Assembly: GCF_003383095.1 (NCBI RefSeq)
Contig: NZ_PSYW01000004.1
Span: 186,001 to 250,000, forward strand
Origin: Haloferax sp. Atlit-12N
Lineage (GTDB): Archaea; Halobacteriota; Halobacteria; Halobacteriales; Haloferacaceae
DNA: 64,000 nt
Reading direction: 5' to 3'
Part shown: positions 10,761 through 29,207 of the stretch, piece by piece
How positions within the stretch are numbered: the stretch's first letter is position 1
Layout: each line of letters opens with the position of its first letter
Translations under genes and position numbers: made by a program
Notes under the pieces: generated by a model
What the model saw: only the letters and a program-made list of their open reading frames with translations
Databases searched by the model: none
Told to the model about the DNA's origin: nothing

Positions 10761-11036
10761 ATGGCCACGTCGGTGAAGATGGACGACGACACGAAATCTC
10801 GTCTCGAACGGTTACAGGCCGAGATTCGGCTGAAGACCGGGAAGCGAGTGACGCAGCAGGAAGTCTTGGCACGGCTCGTCGAGAACGCCGTCGAGTCCAA
10901 GGCTGACCTCATCGACTCGTTCCGCGAGGAGCGTGTCCCGCTGTCGGAGTCCGAGCGCGAGCAGTTCCACGACGGGATGGTCTCGTCTGGCGTCACGACG
11001 ACCGAAGAAGACATCGACGACGTGCTGTACGGATGA
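10761..11036 (+). CDS. vapB: VapB-type antitoxin
   Basis: The product is 91 residues. Its N-terminal 55 residues (TSVKMDDDTKSRLERLQAEI, then TQQEVLARLVENAV) fit a ribbon-helix-helix DNA-binding fold. The acidic C-terminal part, which ends DIDDVLYG, would wrap the toxin. The ATGA overlap with the PIN gene at 11033 is the classic antitoxin-toxin arrangement, and the antitoxin probably represses its own operon. Start ATG 10761 lies a short way after the second beta-helix gene but reads as a separate unit: gcatattctacc at about 10742-10753 is too close to be its TATA, and ggtagcaaatctc upstream is a weak candidate. Confidence 0.8.
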   Translation: MATSVKMDDDTKSRLERLQAEIRLKTGKRVTQQEVLARLVENAVESKADLIDSFREERVPLSESEREQFHDGMVSSGVTTTEEDIDDVLYG

Positions 11037-11461
11037 GCGTCTTCGTCGACACCGGCGTGTTCTTCGCGCACCACGATACGGATGCCGACCGGCACGACCA
11101 AGCCGTCAGCGCGTTCGACGACCTGTTCGACGGGGAGTTCGGACAGCCGTACACGAACGACTACGTTCTCGACGAGACGGTCACGCTCACGCGCGCTCGA
11201 ACGGGTTCGTTCGAGGCGGCGGACACCGTCGCCAGTCGGGTTCTCGGCGAGGAACCGTTCCCGAACGTGTTCGAGATGACTCACGTCGAACCGGACGATG
11301 TCCGGGCGTCGCTGGAGACGCTCCGTCGATACGAGGACCACGACCTCAGCTTCACCGATGCGACCATCGTCTCGCTGTGTGAGTCGCGTGGCATCGACGC
11401 CGTGTTGAGTTTCGACACGGCTTTCGATGGCCTCCTCGACCGCATCGAACCGGGACACTAG
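11033..11461 (+). CDS. vapC: VapC-type PIN-domain ribonuclease toxin
   Basis: The 142-residue length is typical for VapC. The four acidic PIN residues are in place: D6 (MSVFVD), E48 (LDETVTL), D109 (FTDA) and D128 (LSFD). These bind Mg2+ for endoribonuclease cleavage, in characterised members of tRNA or rRNA. It overlaps the antitoxin by four bases. The pair sits between the glycan genes and the ATP-grasp gene, with no mobile-element remains visible, so it may stabilise the region or simply be resident. Confidence 0.87.
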   Translation: MSVFVDTGVFFAHHDTDADRHDQAVSAFDDLFDGEFGQPYTNDYVLDETVTLTRARTGSFEAADTVASRVLGEEPFPNVFEMTHVEPDDVRASLETLRRYEDHDLSFTDATIVSLCESRGIDAVLSFDTAFDGLLDRIEPGH

Positions 11462-15308: not shown

Positions 15309-16049
15309 ATGTCGAACGCTAGCGCACCGGATTCCGAACTCACGGGCCCGACCAGACTCACGCTCAAGGTCTGGCACCCGGACTGCTGGACGCTGGAAGT
15401 GACGGACAACGTCGACGCCGGGGTCACCGCCCACACCGTGTACAACACGCCCGAAGACACGGTCAAGGGACACTTCACGGTCTACGCCGACCGGGTCGAG
15501 GACATCGACGACTTCGTCCGCGCGACCGAGCGGTCGCGGTTGACTGACTCCGTCTCCGAGTTGAGCCCCCGCCACGAGTTCGACAACGGCGCGTCGAACG
15601 TCGGCAACACGACGCGGGAGTTGATGGTCGAGTACGACCCCGAAAACAGCATGACCGACTCGCTTCTATCACACGGCTTCGTCCACGACGCGCCCGTCCG
15701 CGTCGACGACGGCTGGGAGTACTGGCCGGTCATCGACACCGCCGACCGGGCCGACCTCCGCGAACGCCTCGACTCGCTGGAGGCGGCGAATCAGGCCGAA
15801 ATCATCGTCACCAAGGTCACTTCCGTCGCCGGCGCGAAAAACCACGTCTCGCACCAACTGGACAAGCTCTCGAACCGCCAGCGTGAGGTGTTCGAACTGG
15901 CCTGTCGGCGCGACTACTACACGTGGCCGCGGGCGACGACGACGCGGGAACTGGCCGACGAACTCGACATCTCGAAAACTACGCTGCTCGAACATCTCCG
16001 GAAGGCCGAGGCGAAACTCCTCAACCAGTACGCGGAGTCAACTCCGTAA
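15309..16049 (+). CDS. HTH-10 family (bacterio-opsin activator-type) transcriptional regulator
   Basis: The product has 246 residues. Residues about 15-180 form a sensory region with the form seen in Bat-like regulators (LTLKVWHPDCWTLEVTDNVD, then HTVYNTPEDTVKGHFTVYAD). The C-terminal HTH-10 domain begins at LSNRQREVFELACRRDYYTW and continues RELADELDISKTTLLEHLRK, the standard recognition helix of this family. Such proteins are haloarchaeal transcription factors that usually act as activators of nearby or metabolic genes. The target is unknown. The start was chosen by the TATA box 26-33 bases upstream. Confidence 0.85.
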   Translation: MSNASAPDSELTGPTRLTLKVWHPDCWTLEVTDNVDAGVTAHTVYNTPEDTVKGHFTVYADRVEDIDDFVRATERSRLTDSVSELSPRHEFDNGASNVGNTTRELMVEYDPENSMTDSLLSHGFVHDAPVRVDDGWEYWPVIDTADRADLRERLDSLEAANQAEIIVTKVTSVAGAKNHVSHQLDKLSNRQREVFELACRRDYYTWPRATTTRELADELDISKTTLLEHLRKAEAKLLNQYAESTP

Positions 16050-16160: not shown

Positions 16161-16289
16161 TCAGTCGGCCCCCTGTGGCGCGCGCCACGTACAGTCAGTA
16201 CAGCGTTCGATTCTGTGTCGCGTCTGTGTCTCCGAACCGCACTCCGGGCATCGTTGGGCCGACAGTCGCTCCGTGGCTGAGTTCGTCAT
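16161..16289 (-). CDS. 42-residue zinc-ribbon protein
   Basis: ATG at 16289 encodes MTNSATERLSAQRCPECGSE and continues to TGA at 16161-16163. It contains two CxxC pairs: C14-P-E-C17 and C30-T-D-C33, with TW after the second, the spacing of a small zinc ribbon. Haloarchaea express many such micro-proteins, and some have been shown to affect biofilm or motility. It begins 30 bases after the stop of the winged-helix-like ORF on the same strand, so both probably share a transcript. It ends about 110 bases from the convergent HTH-10 gene. Confidence 0.65.
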   Translation of the reverse strand: MTNSATERLSAQRCPECGSETQTRHRIERCTDCTWRAPQGAD

Positions 16290-16319
16290 GGCTGAGTCCT
16301 CGGTGGAGTGCGAGTTATA

Positions 16320-16565
16320 CTAGTGTCTGTCCATGGGAGGGTAGCCCTCGTGAGAGGTCGAGCGAGCGTACACGCCGCAACTCCGGCTTCGGAGTTCGCC
16401 CGCCTGCTGGAGTCGGCTACAGGCGTGTTCTATCTCGATAGGATGTCCGTCCACTCCGGAGAGTATCTCGTCTATCGGCGTCGCCCCTCGGCGGTCGAGA
16501 AGCGCGAGTACCGCCCGTTCGAGTTCGTCCGTCCGCTCGTCCGTCTGGTCGTCTCTCACGCGCAC
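16320..16565 (-). CDS. Small winged-helix-like protein (start uncertain, possible frameshift upstream)
   Basis: The 81-codon frame from GTG 16565 (or GTG 16559) carries ELERAVLALLDRRGATPIDE and EIEHACSRLQQAGELRSRSC, then GVYA, a helix-turn-helix-then-wing pattern like other small haloarchaeal DNA-binding proteins. The promoter upstream (TATA at 16671-16680) does not point to this GTG but to ATG 16651, which opens a 31-residue frame (MVTTSDERAEGD...) that stops at TGA 16558-16556, overlapping GTG 16559 as GTGA. Either the two frames are translationally coupled, or a one-base change split a gene of about 110 residues. Function is inferred from pattern only. Confidence 0.5.
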   Translation of the reverse strand: MRVRDDQTDERTDELERAVLALLDRRGATPIDEILSGVDGHPIEIEHACSRLQQAGELRSRSCGVYARSTSHEGYPPMDRH

Positions 16566-16651
16566 CGACGTGCTTCCGACTCGTGGTTCGTCCCGGGCTC
16601 GTCTCCCGGCGTCCGGTCGCCTTCGGCCCGCTCGTCGCTAGTCGTGACCAT
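16556..16651 (-). CDS. 31-residue leaderless ORF upstream of the winged-helix-like gene
   Basis: ATG 16651 is 25 bases from the centre of a strong minus-strand TATA (tatataacca). The frame is hydrophilic and acidic (DERAEGDRTPGDEPG), like a typical disordered haloarchaeal N-terminus, and ends at TGA inside GTGA. The composition suggests it could be the true N-terminus of the next frame with one base lost or gained. Confidence 0.4.
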   Translation of the reverse strand: MVTTSDERAEGDRTPGDEPGTNHESEARRCA

Positions 16652-16670: not shown

Positions 16671-16680
16671 TGGTTATATA
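16671..16680 (-). promoter_or_regulatory. TATA box for the winged-helix/zinc-ribbon transcript
   Basis: On the minus strand the sequence reads tatataacca. A transcript would begin near 16651, where an ATG is present, so it should be leaderless. Confidence 0.6.
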
Positions 16681-16919
16681 CACATCCCCGACTATGATAC
16701 AGGCCGACCGATGATTTGGACCGAAACTTCCCAGCCGTTGATGTTTGCTACCGGATTCTCAATCTCATAATAGAGGTCCTGAAGTGGCTTGCTATCCGGA
16801 TGTAGTCGAATTATAAAATTAATCATAACAGAGTTCACATACATTTTCTATTGACGACCCCGACCATAGTAGCACATCCGTATAACTACCTTCTGTTCAA
16901 GGGTCTGGGTAGGATTATC
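16681..16919 (+). promoter_or_regulatory. AT-rich promoter region of the NSS transporter
   Basis: The stretch 16690-16915 is A+T-rich and carries no gene. cgtataacta at about 16879-16888 is the best TATA candidate for the start at 16920. A second A+T-rich patch (aattataaaattaatcataa, about 16810-16829) could hold a second promoter or an activator site. Confidence 0.5.
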
Positions 16920-18386
16920 ATGTCAGACTCAGAGGCGAGAACGGCGAGAGAGGAGTGGGGAAGCCGGTTCGGCTTCCTCATGGCGATGCTCGGCGCGATG
17001 GTGGGCGCGGGCAACATCTGGCGCATGCCGTTTACGACGGGCGAAAACGGCGGCGGTGCCTTCCTCGTGGCCTACATCCTCCTGTTGTACCTCATCGCGG
17101 TCCCCGGGTTGATGGCCGAGACGATGATCGGCCGCTACACGAACCACGGAGTCATCGGGGCGTTCAGGAAGGTCCTCGGGAGCAAGCGGGCGCAGGGTCT
17201 CGGCCTCGTGGTCCTCGTCGTCAACGTGGCGCTGATGTCGTACTACGCGCCCATCATCGGCTGGGCGCTCTACTACGCCGGCCACTCGATGCTCATGACA
17301 TTTACCCAACCAGGGTTCCAGCCGCAGGCGTTCTGGGAGGGCTTCATCAACAATCCGGCGCTCGTCGTCGGGATGCACACGGTGACGATGGCCGGTCTGG
17401 CCGGCGTCCTCGTGTTCGGCATCCGCCGGGGCATCGAGCGCGTCGTGAAATGGATGATTCCGTTGCTCGTCATCGCGCTCGTGGCCGTCTCGATTCGCGG
17501 CGTCACACTCCCTGGCGGCATGAAGGGCATCGCGTTCGTCTTCACGCCAGATTGGGGCTACCTCACCCGCGGCAGTACGTGGGTCGCGGCGCTCAGTCAG
17601 GCGCTGTTCTCGACGGGTCTCGGGTGGGGTATCGCGCTGACCTACGGGAGCTACCTCAGCCGGTACGACGACGTGCCGCTCGGCGGCGGCCTGTTCACCG
17701 CCATCGGAAACACGAGTATCGGCCTGCTCGCGGTGTTCGCCACGTTCCCTGTCGTCTTCGCGTTCGGACTCGAACCGAGCGCCGGATCCAACCTGCTTTT
17801 CATCTCGATGGCGCAGATGTTCCCCGAACTCCCCGGCGGGAGTCTGTGGGCTATCGTGTTCTTCGTCTCCTTCTTCTTCGCGACGTTCACCTCCGGTCTC
17901 GGCATCACCGAAGTCGCCGTCACCACCGTTTCGGAAGAGACGCGGCTCTCTCGGACGGGTGCCGTGCTCGCATCCTGCGGCGCTATCTGGCTGTTCGGCC
18001 TCCCGAGCGCCTACTCGTCGGCGTTCCTCGGGCGGATGGACTTCATGTTCGGGAGCTTCGGCCTCCCGCTCGCGACGCTCTCTATCATCGCGCTCGTCGC
18101 GTGGAAGTTCGGCCCCGAGCGCGCCCGCGTCCTCGACCTCAACCGTAACGCCGGCATCTACGTCGGCTCGTGGTGGAATCCGGTCGTGAAGTACGTCATC
18201 CCCGTCGTGATGGTGTTCATCCTCGGCTACGGCGTCTACTCCAGCATCGGGACCGCGAACCAGCGGTTGATGCTGCTCGGCGTCGCGTTCATGGCCGCGC
18301 TCGTCGTCGTGAGCACGCTCGTGATGAGCGTCGTCGGCGACGAGCCACCGTCCGGTTCCGCGGCGGTCCCAGGAGGTGACGACTGA
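16920..18386 (+). CDS. Sodium-dependent transporter of the NSS (SLC6/SNF) family
   Basis: The 488-residue protein begins ATG 16920. The TM1 sodium- and substrate-site motif GSRFGFLMAMLGAMVGAGNI, then WRMPF with GENGGGAFLVAYI, is diagnostic. About 11-12 hydrophobic helices follow, with the family's TM6-region break (YGSYLSRYDDVPLGG). Prokaryotic NSS proteins import amino acids with Na+. The next gene encodes a small single-helix protein and the one after that a proline-racemase-family enzyme; all overlap, so proline, hydroxyproline or a related amino acid is a plausible but unproven substrate. An earlier in-frame codon at 16851 lies in A+T-rich non-coding sequence and was rejected. Confidence 0.9.
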   Translation: MSDSEARTAREEWGSRFGFLMAMLGAMVGAGNIWRMPFTTGENGGGAFLVAYILLLYLIAVPGLMAETMIGRYTNHGVIGAFRKVLGSKRAQGLGLVVLVVNVALMSYYAPIIGWALYYAGHSMLMTFTQPGFQPQAFWEGFINNPALVVGMHTVTMAGLAGVLVFGIRRGIERVVKWMIPLLVIALVAVSIRGVTLPGGMKGIAFVFTPDWGYLTRGSTWVAALSQALFSTGLGWGIALTYGSYLSRYDDVPLGGGLFTAIGNTSIGLLAVFATFPVVFAFGLEPSAGSNLLFISMAQMFPELPGGSLWAIVFFVSFFFATFTSGLGITEVAVTTVSEETRLSRTGAVLASCGAIWLFGLPSAYSSAFLGRMDFMFGSFGLPLATLSIIALVAWKFGPERARVLDLNRNAGIYVGSWWNPVVKYVIPVVMVFILGYGVYSSIGTANQRLMLLGVAFMAALVVVSTLVMSVVGDEPPSGSAAVPGGDD

Positions 18387-18387
18387 G

Positions 18388-18711
18388 ATGGCGCTGTCGA
18401 CGCTCACGTGGGTCTCGATGCTCGTCTCGCTCCTCCTGTTGCCCGGCGTCGCGGCCGCGGTCCTCGTCAGGTCGCTCCGCACCGAGGAGCGCAAACTCGC
18501 GCTCTTACGGGAACAGGACGACGTCGATAGCTACTCGCCGCGGGCGCTCTCCGACCTCCGCGAGTGGATTCGCGCAAATCCCGACGACCCCTATGCGCCG
18601 ATTGCCCGCCGCCGCTACAACGAGTGCGTGCGGTCGCTCCGAGCGATTGACGAGCCGCATTACGACTGGTCCGACGAGCAAATCGCCCGGCTCGAACTGG
18701 TGGACGAATGA
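18388..18711 (+). CDS. Small membrane protein, putative NSS-transporter small subunit
   Basis: The 107-residue product from ATG 18388 (111 from GTG 18376, which overlaps the transporter) has one N-terminal membrane helix (STLTWVSMLVSLLLLPGVAA) and a hydrophilic cytoplasmic part (YSPRALSDLREWIRANPDDP). Bacterial NSS proteins of the MetP type need a small membrane partner (MetS) encoded immediately downstream; position and topology here are the same, although sequence identity to MetS cannot be claimed. The final bases overlap the next gene as ATGA. Confidence 0.65.
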   Translation: MALSTLTWVSMLVSLLLLPGVAAAVLVRSLRTEERKLALLREQDDVDSYSPRALSDLREWIRANPDDPYAPIARRRYNECVRSLRAIDEPHYDWSDEQIARLELVDE

Positions 18712-19769
18712 ACGGAGACCCCACGGCCGACGACCTCGCGGACGAAAGTGAGTTCGAGTTCGACGAACTCACCACGGACGCGTCGTTTACGACCATCGAC
18801 ACGCACACCGAGGGCGAGCCGACCCGCATCGTCGTCGACGGTATCGACCGCTCGGCGCTCGTGGGCGACTCCGTTCGGGAGCGCCGCGATTCGTTCACCG
18901 AGACCCACGACTGGGTGCGCGACCTGCTAATGCGAGAGCCTCGTGGCCACGACGACATGTTCGGGGCCGTCGTCGTCGATTCCGACCATCCCGACGCGGA
19001 CGTGGGCGTCTTCTTCATGGACAGTCGGGGCTACCTCGACATGTGCGGCCACGGGACCATCGGCGTCGTCTCCGCGCTCCTCGAACTGGGCCGACTCGAC
19101 CGACGCGAGACCGTCCGCGTCGAGACGCCGGCCGGACTCGTCGAGGCGACGCCCGAATACGCGTCCGACGGCGGCGTCGAGCGCGTCACGATAGAGAACG
19201 TCCGGTCGTTCGTCTACGACGAGGCGACCGTTCCGGTCTCGTTTCTCGACTCGCCGCTCCCCGTCGACGTCGTCTACGCGGGCAACTTCTTCGCGCTGGT
19301 CGACAGCGACCACCTCGACCTGCCCGTCGAACCACAGCACGCGGCGACGTTCGTCGATTGGGGCCTCGAAATCCGCGACGCCGTCAACGAGCGCCTCGAT
19401 ATCGTCCATCCGCTCACTGGCGAGGAGGGCTCGGTCTCGATTACCGAGATATACGGCACGCCCGAGGACGTAGACCGGAGTATCGTCGTCTTCGGCGAGG
19501 GACAGGTCGACCGCTCGCCGTGCGGGACCGGGACGTGCGCGAAGATGACGCTCCTCCACGACGCCGGCGCGCTCGACATCGGCGAGTCGTACCTCCACGA
19601 GAGCATCGTCGGCACGCGCTTCGAAGGTAGACTCGTCGCGGCCGACGAACGCGACGGCGTGACGCTGACGACGCCGCTCATCACCGGGTCGGCCCGCATC
19701 ACGGGGAAACATCGGTTCGTCAAGGACGCGAAGGACTCGCTTTCCGGGTTCAGTATCTCGGTGGAGTAG
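18708..19769 (+). CDS. Proline racemase / 4-hydroxyproline 2-epimerase family protein
   Basis: The 353-residue protein carries both catalytic cysteines of the family: C113 in MCGHGTIG and C272 in RSPCGTGTCAKM. Two Cys act as the paired acid/base that inverts C-alpha. Trans-3-hydroxyproline dehydratases replace the first Cys by Ser or Thr, so this should be a racemase/epimerase, not a dehydratase. TIDTHTEGEPTRIVVDGI near residue 30 is the usual N-terminal signature. The N-terminal 25 residues are an extra acidic stretch. It overlaps the small membrane gene by four bases, which makes an uptake-plus-epimerisation operon likely. Whether it acts on proline, 4-hydroxyproline or another imino acid cannot be read from sequence. 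Confidence 0.88.
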   Translation: MNGDPTADDLADESEFEFDELTTDASFTTIDTHTEGEPTRIVVDGIDRSALVGDSVRERRDSFTETHDWVRDLLMREPRGHDDMFGAVVVDSDHPDADVGVFFMDSRGYLDMCGHGTIGVVSALLELGRLDRRETVRVETPAGLVEATPEYASDGGVERVTIENVRSFVYDEATVPVSFLDSPLPVDVVYAGNFFALVDSDHLDLPVEPQHAATFVDWGLEIRDAVNERLDIVHPLTGEEGSVSITEIYGTPEDVDRSIVVFGEGQVDRSPCGTGTCAKMTLLHDAGALDIGESYLHESIVGTRFEGRLVAADERDGVTLTTPLITGSARITGKHRFVKDAKDSLSGFSISVE

Positions 19770-27292: not shown

Positions 27293-27440
27293 CGGCGTTG
27301 CGTTTCGGATAACCTTACTAACGCGAAACCGAATTACTGCCCAGAAGTGGCGCTATCTCTGCGGGCTACTGTTCTTGCGGTGTGAACTGCTCCGTCTTAC
27401 CGGAAGCTTTAGTTCGCCTTTCTACATTCTTCCGAAACAA

Positions 27441-29207
27441 ATGCGGGACGGAACCTCCGAACCGACGCCGTTGGCCGCGGGTGGGTACGAGCAACTGCGA
27501 CGGTCGACCGAGACGTACCGCGAGGACCTCGTGCTTCGACTCGGCGCGGAAGTCGGACTCACGCCGGCCGAGATGAGTCAGTTCGAACCCTCTCACGTGA
27601 CCCAGCGGCGACACCGGGGGACGGAACTCTACTTCCTCACTGTGCCGACCGACGGCCGAGAGGCGTACCTGCCGAACGAGGTCGAACACGACGTTCGAAA
27701 GTACGTCACGACGACCGACATCGACGAGACTGAACGAGTGCTTCCGGTCACACCGCGGCGTCTGCAGATGCTCGTGGCATCGGTCGGAACGCGGGCCGCC
27801 GAACGAACCGGCCGCGAGGGGTTGGCGGACGTTTCGACTCGCGACCTGCGTCGGCACTTCGCCCGAACGATGCTCGGTGACGGCGTCCCACCGAGCGTCG
27901 TCATGCGAGTCGGCGGGTGGGACCGAATCGAGAGTCTCGCGCCGCTCCTCGACGAACCGAGCGAAGACGAGGTGCTCGATGCGCTGTCGCCGGATGCCGT
28001 CGACAGCGGCGAGCGTCCTGCAGGCGGTGAATCCGACCGAGTGCGTCAGGTCGTCGAGACCGCCCGAAGCGTCGGGTCGGCACTCTCGGGGGTGAACACG
28101 CGAGGCGAGGTCGAACAGGCCGTCTGTGACGGACTCGCCGATTCGAGCCACTACCGTTTCGCTTGGATAGCGTCGGACGAAACCGATGCGCGAGCGTCGC
28201 TCACCGTCGCCGGACTCGACGAGGAATCGCTCGAAGCGGTCCGCCGATCGCTCGCCAGTCGAGACACGGATTTCGCTCGACGCGCGTGCGATACCGGTGC
28301 CGTGCAGACCGTGCGTATCGACCTGCCGCCGAACTCCGAGAGCGGCCGTCTCGCTGTCGTCCCGCTGGTACACGGCGAAACCGCCTACGGCGCGCTCTAC
28401 GTCGCGCTCGATGACGAAGCGGTCCCCGACGCCGAGGCGGACGTACTGGTGACGTTGGGCCGCCACGTCGGACAGGCTATCGCCGCCGCGGAGCGTCGGA
28501 AGCTACTCCTCGCCGACACGGTCGTTCAACTGGAGTTCGAATCATCGGACCAACAGGACGTGCTCGTCGGACTCTCCGCGGACCTCGGTTGTTCGGTTCG
28601 GCTCCGCGGCGTCGTTCCTATCGAGGAGCGGTCGTTGCTGTGCTTTCTCACCGTTCGGGGGGCGACGACGGACGCGGTGTTCGACGAGTTGCAAACGACG
28701 CCAGCAGTCGAGCACATCCGCCTCATTCGTGACCGGGGAACGGAGTCACTCCTCGAGGTCGCGCTCTCCGCGGGGTCGACGATTACGACGCTCACGTCCT
28801 ACGACGGAACCGTCTCGCGGTTCGTCGCGGAGGACGGCGTCGCCCGTTTCGTCGGCGAGTTCTCGAACGAAACGCCGCTCCGAGACGTGATGTCCGACCT
28901 GACCGACGCCTATCCCGCGACCGAACTCGTCGCGAAACAGGAGGTCGAACGGCCCACGCGAAACACCGCCGACTTTCGGGAGTCGCTCGTGGCGCGACTC
29001 ACAGACAAGCAGCAGTCCGTCCTGCGAGCGGCCTATCTCGCCGGGTACTTCGAGTGGCCCCGCGGTAGTACCGCCGAAGACCTCGCGGATTCGATAGACA
29101 TCTCGTCGCCGACGCTCCACCAGCACCTCCGAACCGCACAGCAGAAACTCATGACTGCGTTCTTCGACGACGACAGCGACGAACACGCTTCGACCCTAAA
29201 CCCTTAG
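27441..29207 (+). CDS. HTH-10 regulator with N-terminal inactive tyrosine-recombinase-like domain and GAF-like domain
   Basis: The 588-residue protein from ATG 27441 has three parts. Residues 1-180 resemble the catalytic fold of tyrosine recombinases (VLRLGAEVGLTPAEMSQFEP, later STRDLRRHFARTMLGDGVPP and VMRVGGWDRIESLAPLL), but the box I Arg is replaced (GLTPAEM for GLR-x-x-E), the first His of H-x-L-R-x-x is Arg, and no nucleophilic Tyr follows GGW. Residues about 200-360 look GAF-like (VSSxxxR-type SHYRFAWIAS, then FARRACDTGAVQTVRI and AYGALYVAL). The C-terminal half is the bacterio-opsin-activator domain with HTH-10 (LTDKQQSVLRAAYLAGYFEW and SSPTLHQHLR). It sits between two acs genes and is a likely local regulator of acetate use. 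Confidence 0.85.
   Translation: MRDGTSEPTPLAAGGYEQLRRSTETYREDLVLRLGAEVGLTPAEMSQFEPSHVTQRRHRGTELYFLTVPTDGREAYLPNEVEHDVRKYVTTTDIDETERVLPVTPRRLQMLVASVGTRAAERTGREGLADVSTRDLRRHFARTMLGDGVPPSVVMRVGGWDRIESLAPLLDEPSEDEVLDALSPDAVDSGERPAGGESDRVRQVVETARSVGSALSGVNTRGEVEQAVCDGLADSSHYRFAWIASDETDARASLTVAGLDEESLEAVRRSLASRDTDFARRACDTGAVQTVRIDLPPNSESGRLAVVPLVHGETAYGALYVALDDEAVPDAEADVLVTLGRHVGQAIAAAERRKLLLADTVVQLEFESSDQQDVLVGLSADLGCSVRLRGVVPIEERSLLCFLTVRGATTDAVFDELQTTPAVEHIRLIRDRGTESLLEVALSAGSTITTLTSYDGTVSRFVAEDGVARFVGEFSNETPLRDVMSDLTDAYPATELVAKQEVERPTRNTADFRESLVARLTDKQQSVLRAAYLAGYFEWPRGSTAEDLADSIDISSPTLHQHLRTAQQKLMTAFFDDDSDEHASTLNP

Follow-up and report, generated by a model that had tools for sequence, protein, structure and literature searches.

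Three very small open reading frames on the minus strand of a Haloferax sp. Atlit-12N contig raise the question of whether they are members of one translationally coupled operon or pieces of one split gene, and of what their products may do. The whole stretch of DNA analysed, 64,000 nt in length, is called the window here, and its relevant features are collected in Table 1. According to the sequence and the list of open reading frames, the order of the locus is TATATAA, ORF31, wH ORF and ZnR ORF. A preliminary description had pointed to a minus-strand TATA facing ATG 16651, to a frame stopping at GTGA on a downstream DNA-binding-like ORF, and to a 42-residue CxxC-CxxC zinc ribbon 30 bases after the latter. 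All these elements were found as described, the TATA and its ATG being the same in five genomes, and the three-part anatomy is confirmed as real and above chance. The centre of TATATAA lies 26 nt ahead of the A in ATG 16651, which is the spacing of a leaderless start, and the TATAAC of the ZnR promoter starts 30 nt ahead of ATG 16289. The transporter gene of the window is divergent from ORF31 and wH.

Table 1. Features of the studied locus, with positions in the window
Feature	Position	Strand	Remarks
HTH_10 regulator	15309..16049	+	PF04967, 59.5 bits; convergent with ZnR
ZnR, 42-residue zinc ribbon CPECG...CTDCxW...PQGAD	16161..16289	-	30 nt 3' of wH stop
ZnR gene promoter: CATGG, 11 nt, TATAAC	16314..16335	-	kept in 5 genomes
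wH, 79-residue winged-helix protein (predicted)	16320..16559	-	81 aa if GTG 16565 is the start
ORF31, 31-codon frame, leaderless-type ATG	16556..16651	-	TGA stop overlaps wH start GTG 16559 as GTGA
TATATAA box, ORF31-wH promoter	16674..16680	-	from the sequence; kept in 5/5 ORF31-bearing genomes
Half-site of palindromic operator candidate, CATAGTCGGGG	16686..16696	-	upstream of ORF31; CATAG ends 11 nt ahead of TATA
Second operator half-site (candidate), CTATGGTCGGGG	16858..16869	-	upstream of divergent transporter gene; kept in 5 genomes and G003
SNF-family Na+-dependent transporter	16920..18386	+	PF00209, 199 bits
Proline racemase family protein	18708..19769	+	PF05544, 300 bits; NCBIfam equivalogs below their cut-offs

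The ATG, the 31 codons, the GTGA, wH and ZnR are all kept in five Haloferax genomes (the window's own, G000, and G001, G002, G004 and G007), and ORF31 is free of indels in them, with unchanged start and stop. Across these genomes, the pN/pS ratio in frame was 0.52 for wH (core 0.42; other forward frames 1.12-1.18) and 0.30 for ZnR (other forward frames 0.87-1.70), and the forward out-of-frame values of all three ORFs ranged from 0.87 to 1.75. The preliminary description had also considered that the three frames are a single split or frameshifted gene, which is highly improbable. In each of the five genomes the wH frame does run open for 105-115 codons between stops, but the frame offset is identical in all of them, the window has no in-frame ATG, GTG or TTG before GTG 16565, the upstream extension of the wH frame is unconstrained (pN/pS 1.37), and the RefSeq start of the H. 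gibbonsii wH gene gives 74 residues, as here. When orthologues were compared for a single uninterrupted frame near 110 residues in length, only this open stretch, startless in the window, came to light, and no fused coding frame was seen. H. gibbonsii LR2-5, a strain for which RNA-seq has been published (PMC12542753), carries the locus on plasmid pHGLR2. Its wH counterpart is annotated as a hypothetical protein, and the plasmid record, whose gene table is incomplete, lists wH as a gene and leaves ZnR and ORF31 unlisted. Judged by these comparisons, the locus is a conserved, real gene set and not one broken gene.

The GTGA overlap of ORF31 and wH is ordinary, because ATGA/GTGA was reported to exceed by a wide margin every other arrangement of neighbouring same-strand genes in H. 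volcanii, where 354 such pairs were counted (PMC10666635). Of the overlapping pairs tested in H. volcanii and E. coli, 13 of 14 were reported to be strictly coupled (PMC6728339), and a distance of about 20 nt was reported to almost abolish coupling in H. volcanii (PMC10666635). The locus shares the GTGA overlap with the termination-reinitiation pairs described there (PMC6728339, PMC10666635), but its upstream frame has just 31 codons and its function as a protein is doubtful. Between wH and ZnR, three genomes have a gap of 30 nt, and in the remaining two it measures 71 and 158 nt. Because of this gap and the TATAAC of its own conserved in five genomes, ZnR was rejected as a third coupled cistron and is read as its own leaderless unit. 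The coupled micro-operon of the preliminary description thus stood in part: its separate frames, leaderless-type promoter and ORF31/wH overlap were borne out, but ZnR dropped out of it, and coupling is plausible for ORF31 and wH alone. Furthermore, ZnR does not depend on wH, because it persists both in G013, which has a shortened wH, and in H. massiliensis (G003), which has lost most of ORF31 and wH and reads TCTAAC where the ZnR promoter of the five genomes has TATAAC.

The pN/pS ratio of ORF31 was 0.47 in frame; its two other forward frames gave 1.27 and 1.37, and one reverse frame gave 0.58. Variable columns numbered 4, 4 and 9 by codon position, and a coding test by shuffling of alignment columns gave p = 0.12. 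This pattern suggests that ORF31 is translated, probably as a translated lead-in. A functional 31-residue microprotein would agree with the indel-free frame, the unchanged start and stop and the low in-frame ratio, but it is unlikely in view of the permutation result and the reverse-frame value; moreover, a DNA search of the ten remaining Haloferax genomes returned no match to ORF31 except 38 bases elsewhere in G003, and profile searches gave no family match. Perhaps, and we put this forward tentatively, ORF31 is a decayed zinc-ribbon copy from a duplicated promoter-ZnR-wH unit, in which the first ZnR lost its zinc-binding part and the second lost its wH, so that the frame would stay open only as a ribosome feeder to wH. 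Both window promoters (ORF31 and ZnR) have the layout YATRG-N11-TATA, and ZnR-wH is the order outside the five genomes, from which duplication and decay would give promoter-ORF31-wH-promoter-ZnR. In G001 the score of the DNA alignment between the ORF31 unit and the ZnR unit was reached by 1 of 500 shuffles (3 of 500 for the ORF parts alone), but in the other four genomes it was reached by 55, 319, 71 and 124 of 500, the promoter parts alone were never significant (88-244 of 500), and codon structure is not preserved by this shuffling. Inspection by eye showed no remnant of wH after ZnR. An origin of ORF31 by decay is compatible with the role in proline use proposed below for its neighbours.

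The AF2 model of wH, built from an 8-row alignment (mean pLDDT 78.3), has the order helix-helix-helix-strand-strand, and the predicted structure fits the winged-helix pattern of three helices and a two-strand wing. A Foldseek search of the PDB gave generic winged helices, with a best E of 4e-3 and none at ≤0.001, and query TM values of 0.67-0.73 to winged-helix domains, e.g., Zalpha and Rpa2. The nearest Pfam family is DUF5805 (PF19121), with a resemblance spanning 55 residues; membership was rejected at 23.4 bits against the 28.5 cut-off, whereas the true member of the same genome, located elsewhere, scores 93.2 bits. The protein is acidic (pI 5.04; two wH proteins in swapped order have pI 6.01 and 5.9), and it was rejected as a Brb, which is strongly basic with a pI of 11.4. 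Within the order, the wH alignment matched in 159 of 392 genomes at E 1e-6. Relatives of wH were also observed directly 3' of an apparent transcription factor B gene, called by eye, in five genomes (L010, L012 and L016 in G056, G032 and G050; L009 and L015 in G040 and G030), where they may be a partner of general transcription.

The ZnR protein, which ends in PQGAD, is a C4 ribbon, and its four cysteines, paired in CPECG (residues 14-18) and CTDC (30-33), do not vary in either of two alignments, one of 9 and one of 10 sequences. It has the pattern by which CPxCG-related zinc finger proteins were defined, i.e., two Cys/His patterns 7-40 residues apart, of which at least one is CPxCG-like (PMC2253796), and we infer that it binds zinc. 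In size and paired CxxC motifs it resembles the haloarchaeal CPxCG zinc-finger micro-proteins of the H. volcanii set as described (PMC10716476), but it differs from them by its distinct PQGAD C-terminus. The fold model is weak (mean pLDDT 72.5), Foldseek against the PDB gave nothing better than E 1.2, with TFS4 as one of many ribbons listed, and profile searches against named families gave sub-threshold matches only. Membership in the Brz family was rejected, as ZnR had no PF23454 match up to E 1; the Brz of G104 (L130) reaches 76.7 bits against PF23454 and aligns with ZnR over 14 residues around CPxCG only. A TFE-like split factor, with wH as the winged helix and ZnR as the ribbon, was also considered; the Foldseek results were generic winged helices for wH and no significant match for ZnR. 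The ZnR alignment was matched in 159 of 392 genomes of the order at E 0.001, although many of the weaker matches cover part of the model only and may be other ribbons.

The gene neighbourhood of ZnR was compared in 20 stretches from 19 genomes and nine genera, 19 of them fetched by rank of the order-wide match and one (G003) added. Not included from the ranked list are the five genomes of the window type, 14 additional matches from the genus to which G053 belongs, and three matches close to the lower end of the ranks taken (G095, G299 and the second G297 match); some loci had been partly viewed before sampling, and loci of one genus are not independent. Neighbour genes were called by tblastn at E 1e-30, and the L151 stretch covers one side of ZnR. 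Near ZnR, an aldehyde dehydrogenase (ALDH), a proline-dehydrogenase-like protein (PRODH) and HTH_10 were each found in 10/20 loci, a racemase in 6/20 and an SNF transporter in 4/20, and nine loci (L147-L151, L157-L159 and L165) had none of these five large genes. An intact wH lies beside ZnR in 8/20 loci and a truncated one in 1/20. The order is wH-ZnR in the five Haloferax genomes. The opposite order, ZnR-wH, with an overlap or a gap of no more than about 20 nt, was found in G006, G008, G009, G039, G068, G079 and twice in G132; it is the order of other Haloferax as well as Halostella-type and Halorussus genomes. In G132 (L154, L155), a single contig carries two copies of the whole SNF-racemase-HTH_10-ALDH-PRODH-ZnR-wH cluster, separated by about 515 kb and equal in their match percentages.

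Proline use is deduced from this combination of genes, because the NCBIfam cut-offs for PRODH, racemase and ALDH were unmet: two proline-dehydrogenase-like proteins had 186 and 194 bits to NF045947 (cut-off 500), the racemase family protein 297 bits to PRK13969 (cut-off 556), and the best ALDH profile, 2,5-dioxovalerate dehydrogenase, gave 401 bits against 750, with other profiles lower. No PRODH or ALDH relatives were found in the 64-kb window. The window's own genome has a proline dehydrogenase gene (C1:278161) adjoined by an ALDH gene and an HTH_10 paralogue with 43% to the HTH_10 of the window. Two further observations concern other parts of the window. A second HTH_10 gene (match 28995-29162) lies between two acetate-CoA ligase genes (about 27400-29200), and its H. 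gibbonsii counterpart is annotated as a bacterio-opsin activator domain protein. A PIN-domain protein is encoded at 11033-11461; the H. gibbonsii gene has a small neighbour overlapping its start, an arrangement that looks like a toxin-antitoxin pair.

A candidate operator was found in the same set of loci. The full palindrome CCCGACCATGGTCGGG, 16 bp and perfect, occurs in the divergent promoters between the HTH_10 and ALDH genes of L162, L163 and L164, and the window has half-sites. The core ATRGTCGGG occurs twice in the 64 kb, at 16687 and 16859, in the upstream regions of ORF31 and the transporter gene; since two or more copies were obtained in 24 of 100 shuffles of the 64 kb, the number is unremarkable and the positions are remarkable. 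Only one copy in the 4.0 Mb of the genome, that of the ORF31 promoter, is followed by a TATA at 4-7 nt. The palindrome or its half was present within 250 nt upstream of ZnR in 12/20, ALDH in 5/10, PRODH in 6/10, HTH_10 in 4/10, SNF in 1/4 and racemase in 0/6 cases (shuffle expectation 0.00-0.05 per gene class; 0.04 for ZnR), counts which are overstated because eight of the 20 loci had served to spot the motif by eye before the pattern was widened, because divergent genes share sites and because the genomes are related. At least one motif lies upstream of matched genes in 17/20 loci (absent in L159, L160 and L165), and outside the eight loci where it was first noticed (L147-L153, L156) it is present in 9/12, the SNF site of L166 among those 12 having been visible earlier. 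When all 20 loci were divided into 250-nt tiles, cluster promoters included, the motif was present in 28 of 1478.

TAT follows YATRG at exactly 11 nt in 11 of the 16 promoters listed, which were chosen for having the motif, under a loosened pattern that admits the ZnR promoter of the window; the exceptions are the ZnR promoter of H. massiliensis, L147-L149 and the PRODH of the own genome. The latter genome (4.0 Mb) has five sites with one mismatch from CCGACYATRGTCGG and none perfect, and one of the five, CCGTCCATGGTCGG, lies about 111 nt ahead of its proline dehydrogenase gene. At ≤2 mismatches to CCGACYATRGTCGG, 66 sites were counted, compared with 26 for the reversed pattern. As to the factor that might bind, the motif occurs without a nearby intact wH in L150, L156-L158, L161-L164 and L166, and without a nearby HTH_10 in L147-L152, L157 and L158; HTH_10 relatives are present in 20/20 genomes searched, so the presence of HTH_10 cannot discriminate the operator-binding factor. 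In the Haloarcula-type locus L160 the motif is absent despite HTH_10, ALDH, PRODH, racemase and ZnR.

We hypothesize, with a probability of about 0.5, that wH and ZnR are small regulators of proline use which work with or alongside the neighbouring HTH_10, that a factor of this set binds the palindrome, and that ORF31 and wH are coupled with ZnR expressed separately. Transcription would start leaderless at ATG 16651, ribosomes ending ORF31 would reinitiate on the overlapping GTG and translate wH, and ZnR would be started separately from its own TATA. A factor of the wH/ZnR/HTH_10 set would bind the palindrome, of which often only half is kept and whose centre block typically lies 11 nt from the TATA ahead of zinc-ribbon, PRODH, ALDH and transporter genes, and it would control these catabolic genes as well as its own. 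HTH_10, ZnR and wH may form or modulate one activator or repressor at this site, as Brz and Brb act with Bat at the bop promoter; the position of the motif just upstream of the TATA would fit activation. The motif copies in the window, on the other hand, are degenerate halves, which counts against this explanation. A literature search, with most subscription journals outside its scope, recognised no published proline regulator or operator in haloarchaea.

Also counting against a regulator is the arrangement of ZnR in Haloarcula-type loci (L031, L071-L075, L080, L083, L085, L086 and L128), where its start overlaps the ALDH stop by about 8 nt and where it is probably coupled to the ALDH gene. 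This would equally fit an enzyme partner, i.e., ZnR as a small subunit or stabiliser of ALDH or another enzyme, with wH as a separate local repressor. ZnR likewise overlaps or directly follows ALDH in L161, L163 and L164, and overlapping pairs were reported to be enriched in subunits of complexes (PMC10666635). We nevertheless regard an enzyme partner as unlikely: ALDH is absent from the fetched stretch in 10/20 loci (L151 covering one side only), and ZnR is preceded by an operator-type promoter of its own and is found paired with wH in either order.

The layout of HTH_10, ZnR and wH recalls the bop regulators Bat, Brz and Brb of Halobacterium salinarum. Bat carries an HTH_10 domain. In the papers on this system it is called a helix-turn-helix protein (PMC2253796, PMC3184054). 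Loss of the small zinc protein Brz lowers bop mRNA (PMC2253796). Brb is co-transcribed and was reported to cooperate with Brz and Bat, although stop mutations in brb by themselves had no effect (PMC3184054). Two further zinc/basic pairs were described near Bat homologues in H. salinarum, in both orders (PMC3184054). As far as described there, the two sets share a CPxCG zinc protein of very small size, another very small protein whose frame adjoins or overlaps that of the first, and a neighbouring HTH_10-type regulator, and there too the small genes occur in either order (brz-brb versus bp4-OE2447F). Here, an HTH_10 gene near the small zinc protein was found in the window (15309-16049) and in 10/20 ZnR loci. 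The differences from the published system are that ZnR does not belong to PF23454, that wH is an acidic winged helix by prediction in place of the basic Brb, and that the neighbours are transport and amino-acid genes instead of opsin genes. The layout is like Bat-Brz-Brb and the protein families are different, and the conserved pair most likely consists of regulators of proline use.

A broader proposal is conceivable, though speculative: HTH_10, a zinc ribbon of 34-42 residues and a very small second protein could be a general haloarchaeal three-part regulator reaching far beyond bacteriorhodopsin. At this locus it would govern proline uptake and breakdown via the 16-bp palindrome locked 11 nt upstream of the TATA and would regulate itself, with ORF31 as a worn-down zinc-ribbon copy kept as ribosome feeder for wH. 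Haloarchaea have an abundance of very small zinc proteins, most of which have no known role. The locus links one family of them with a likely pathway as well as with a partner and a cis element, so that a role becomes testable in Haloferax, where genetic tools exist. If true, it would mean that the Bat-Brz-Brb scheme widens from photobiology to metabolism.
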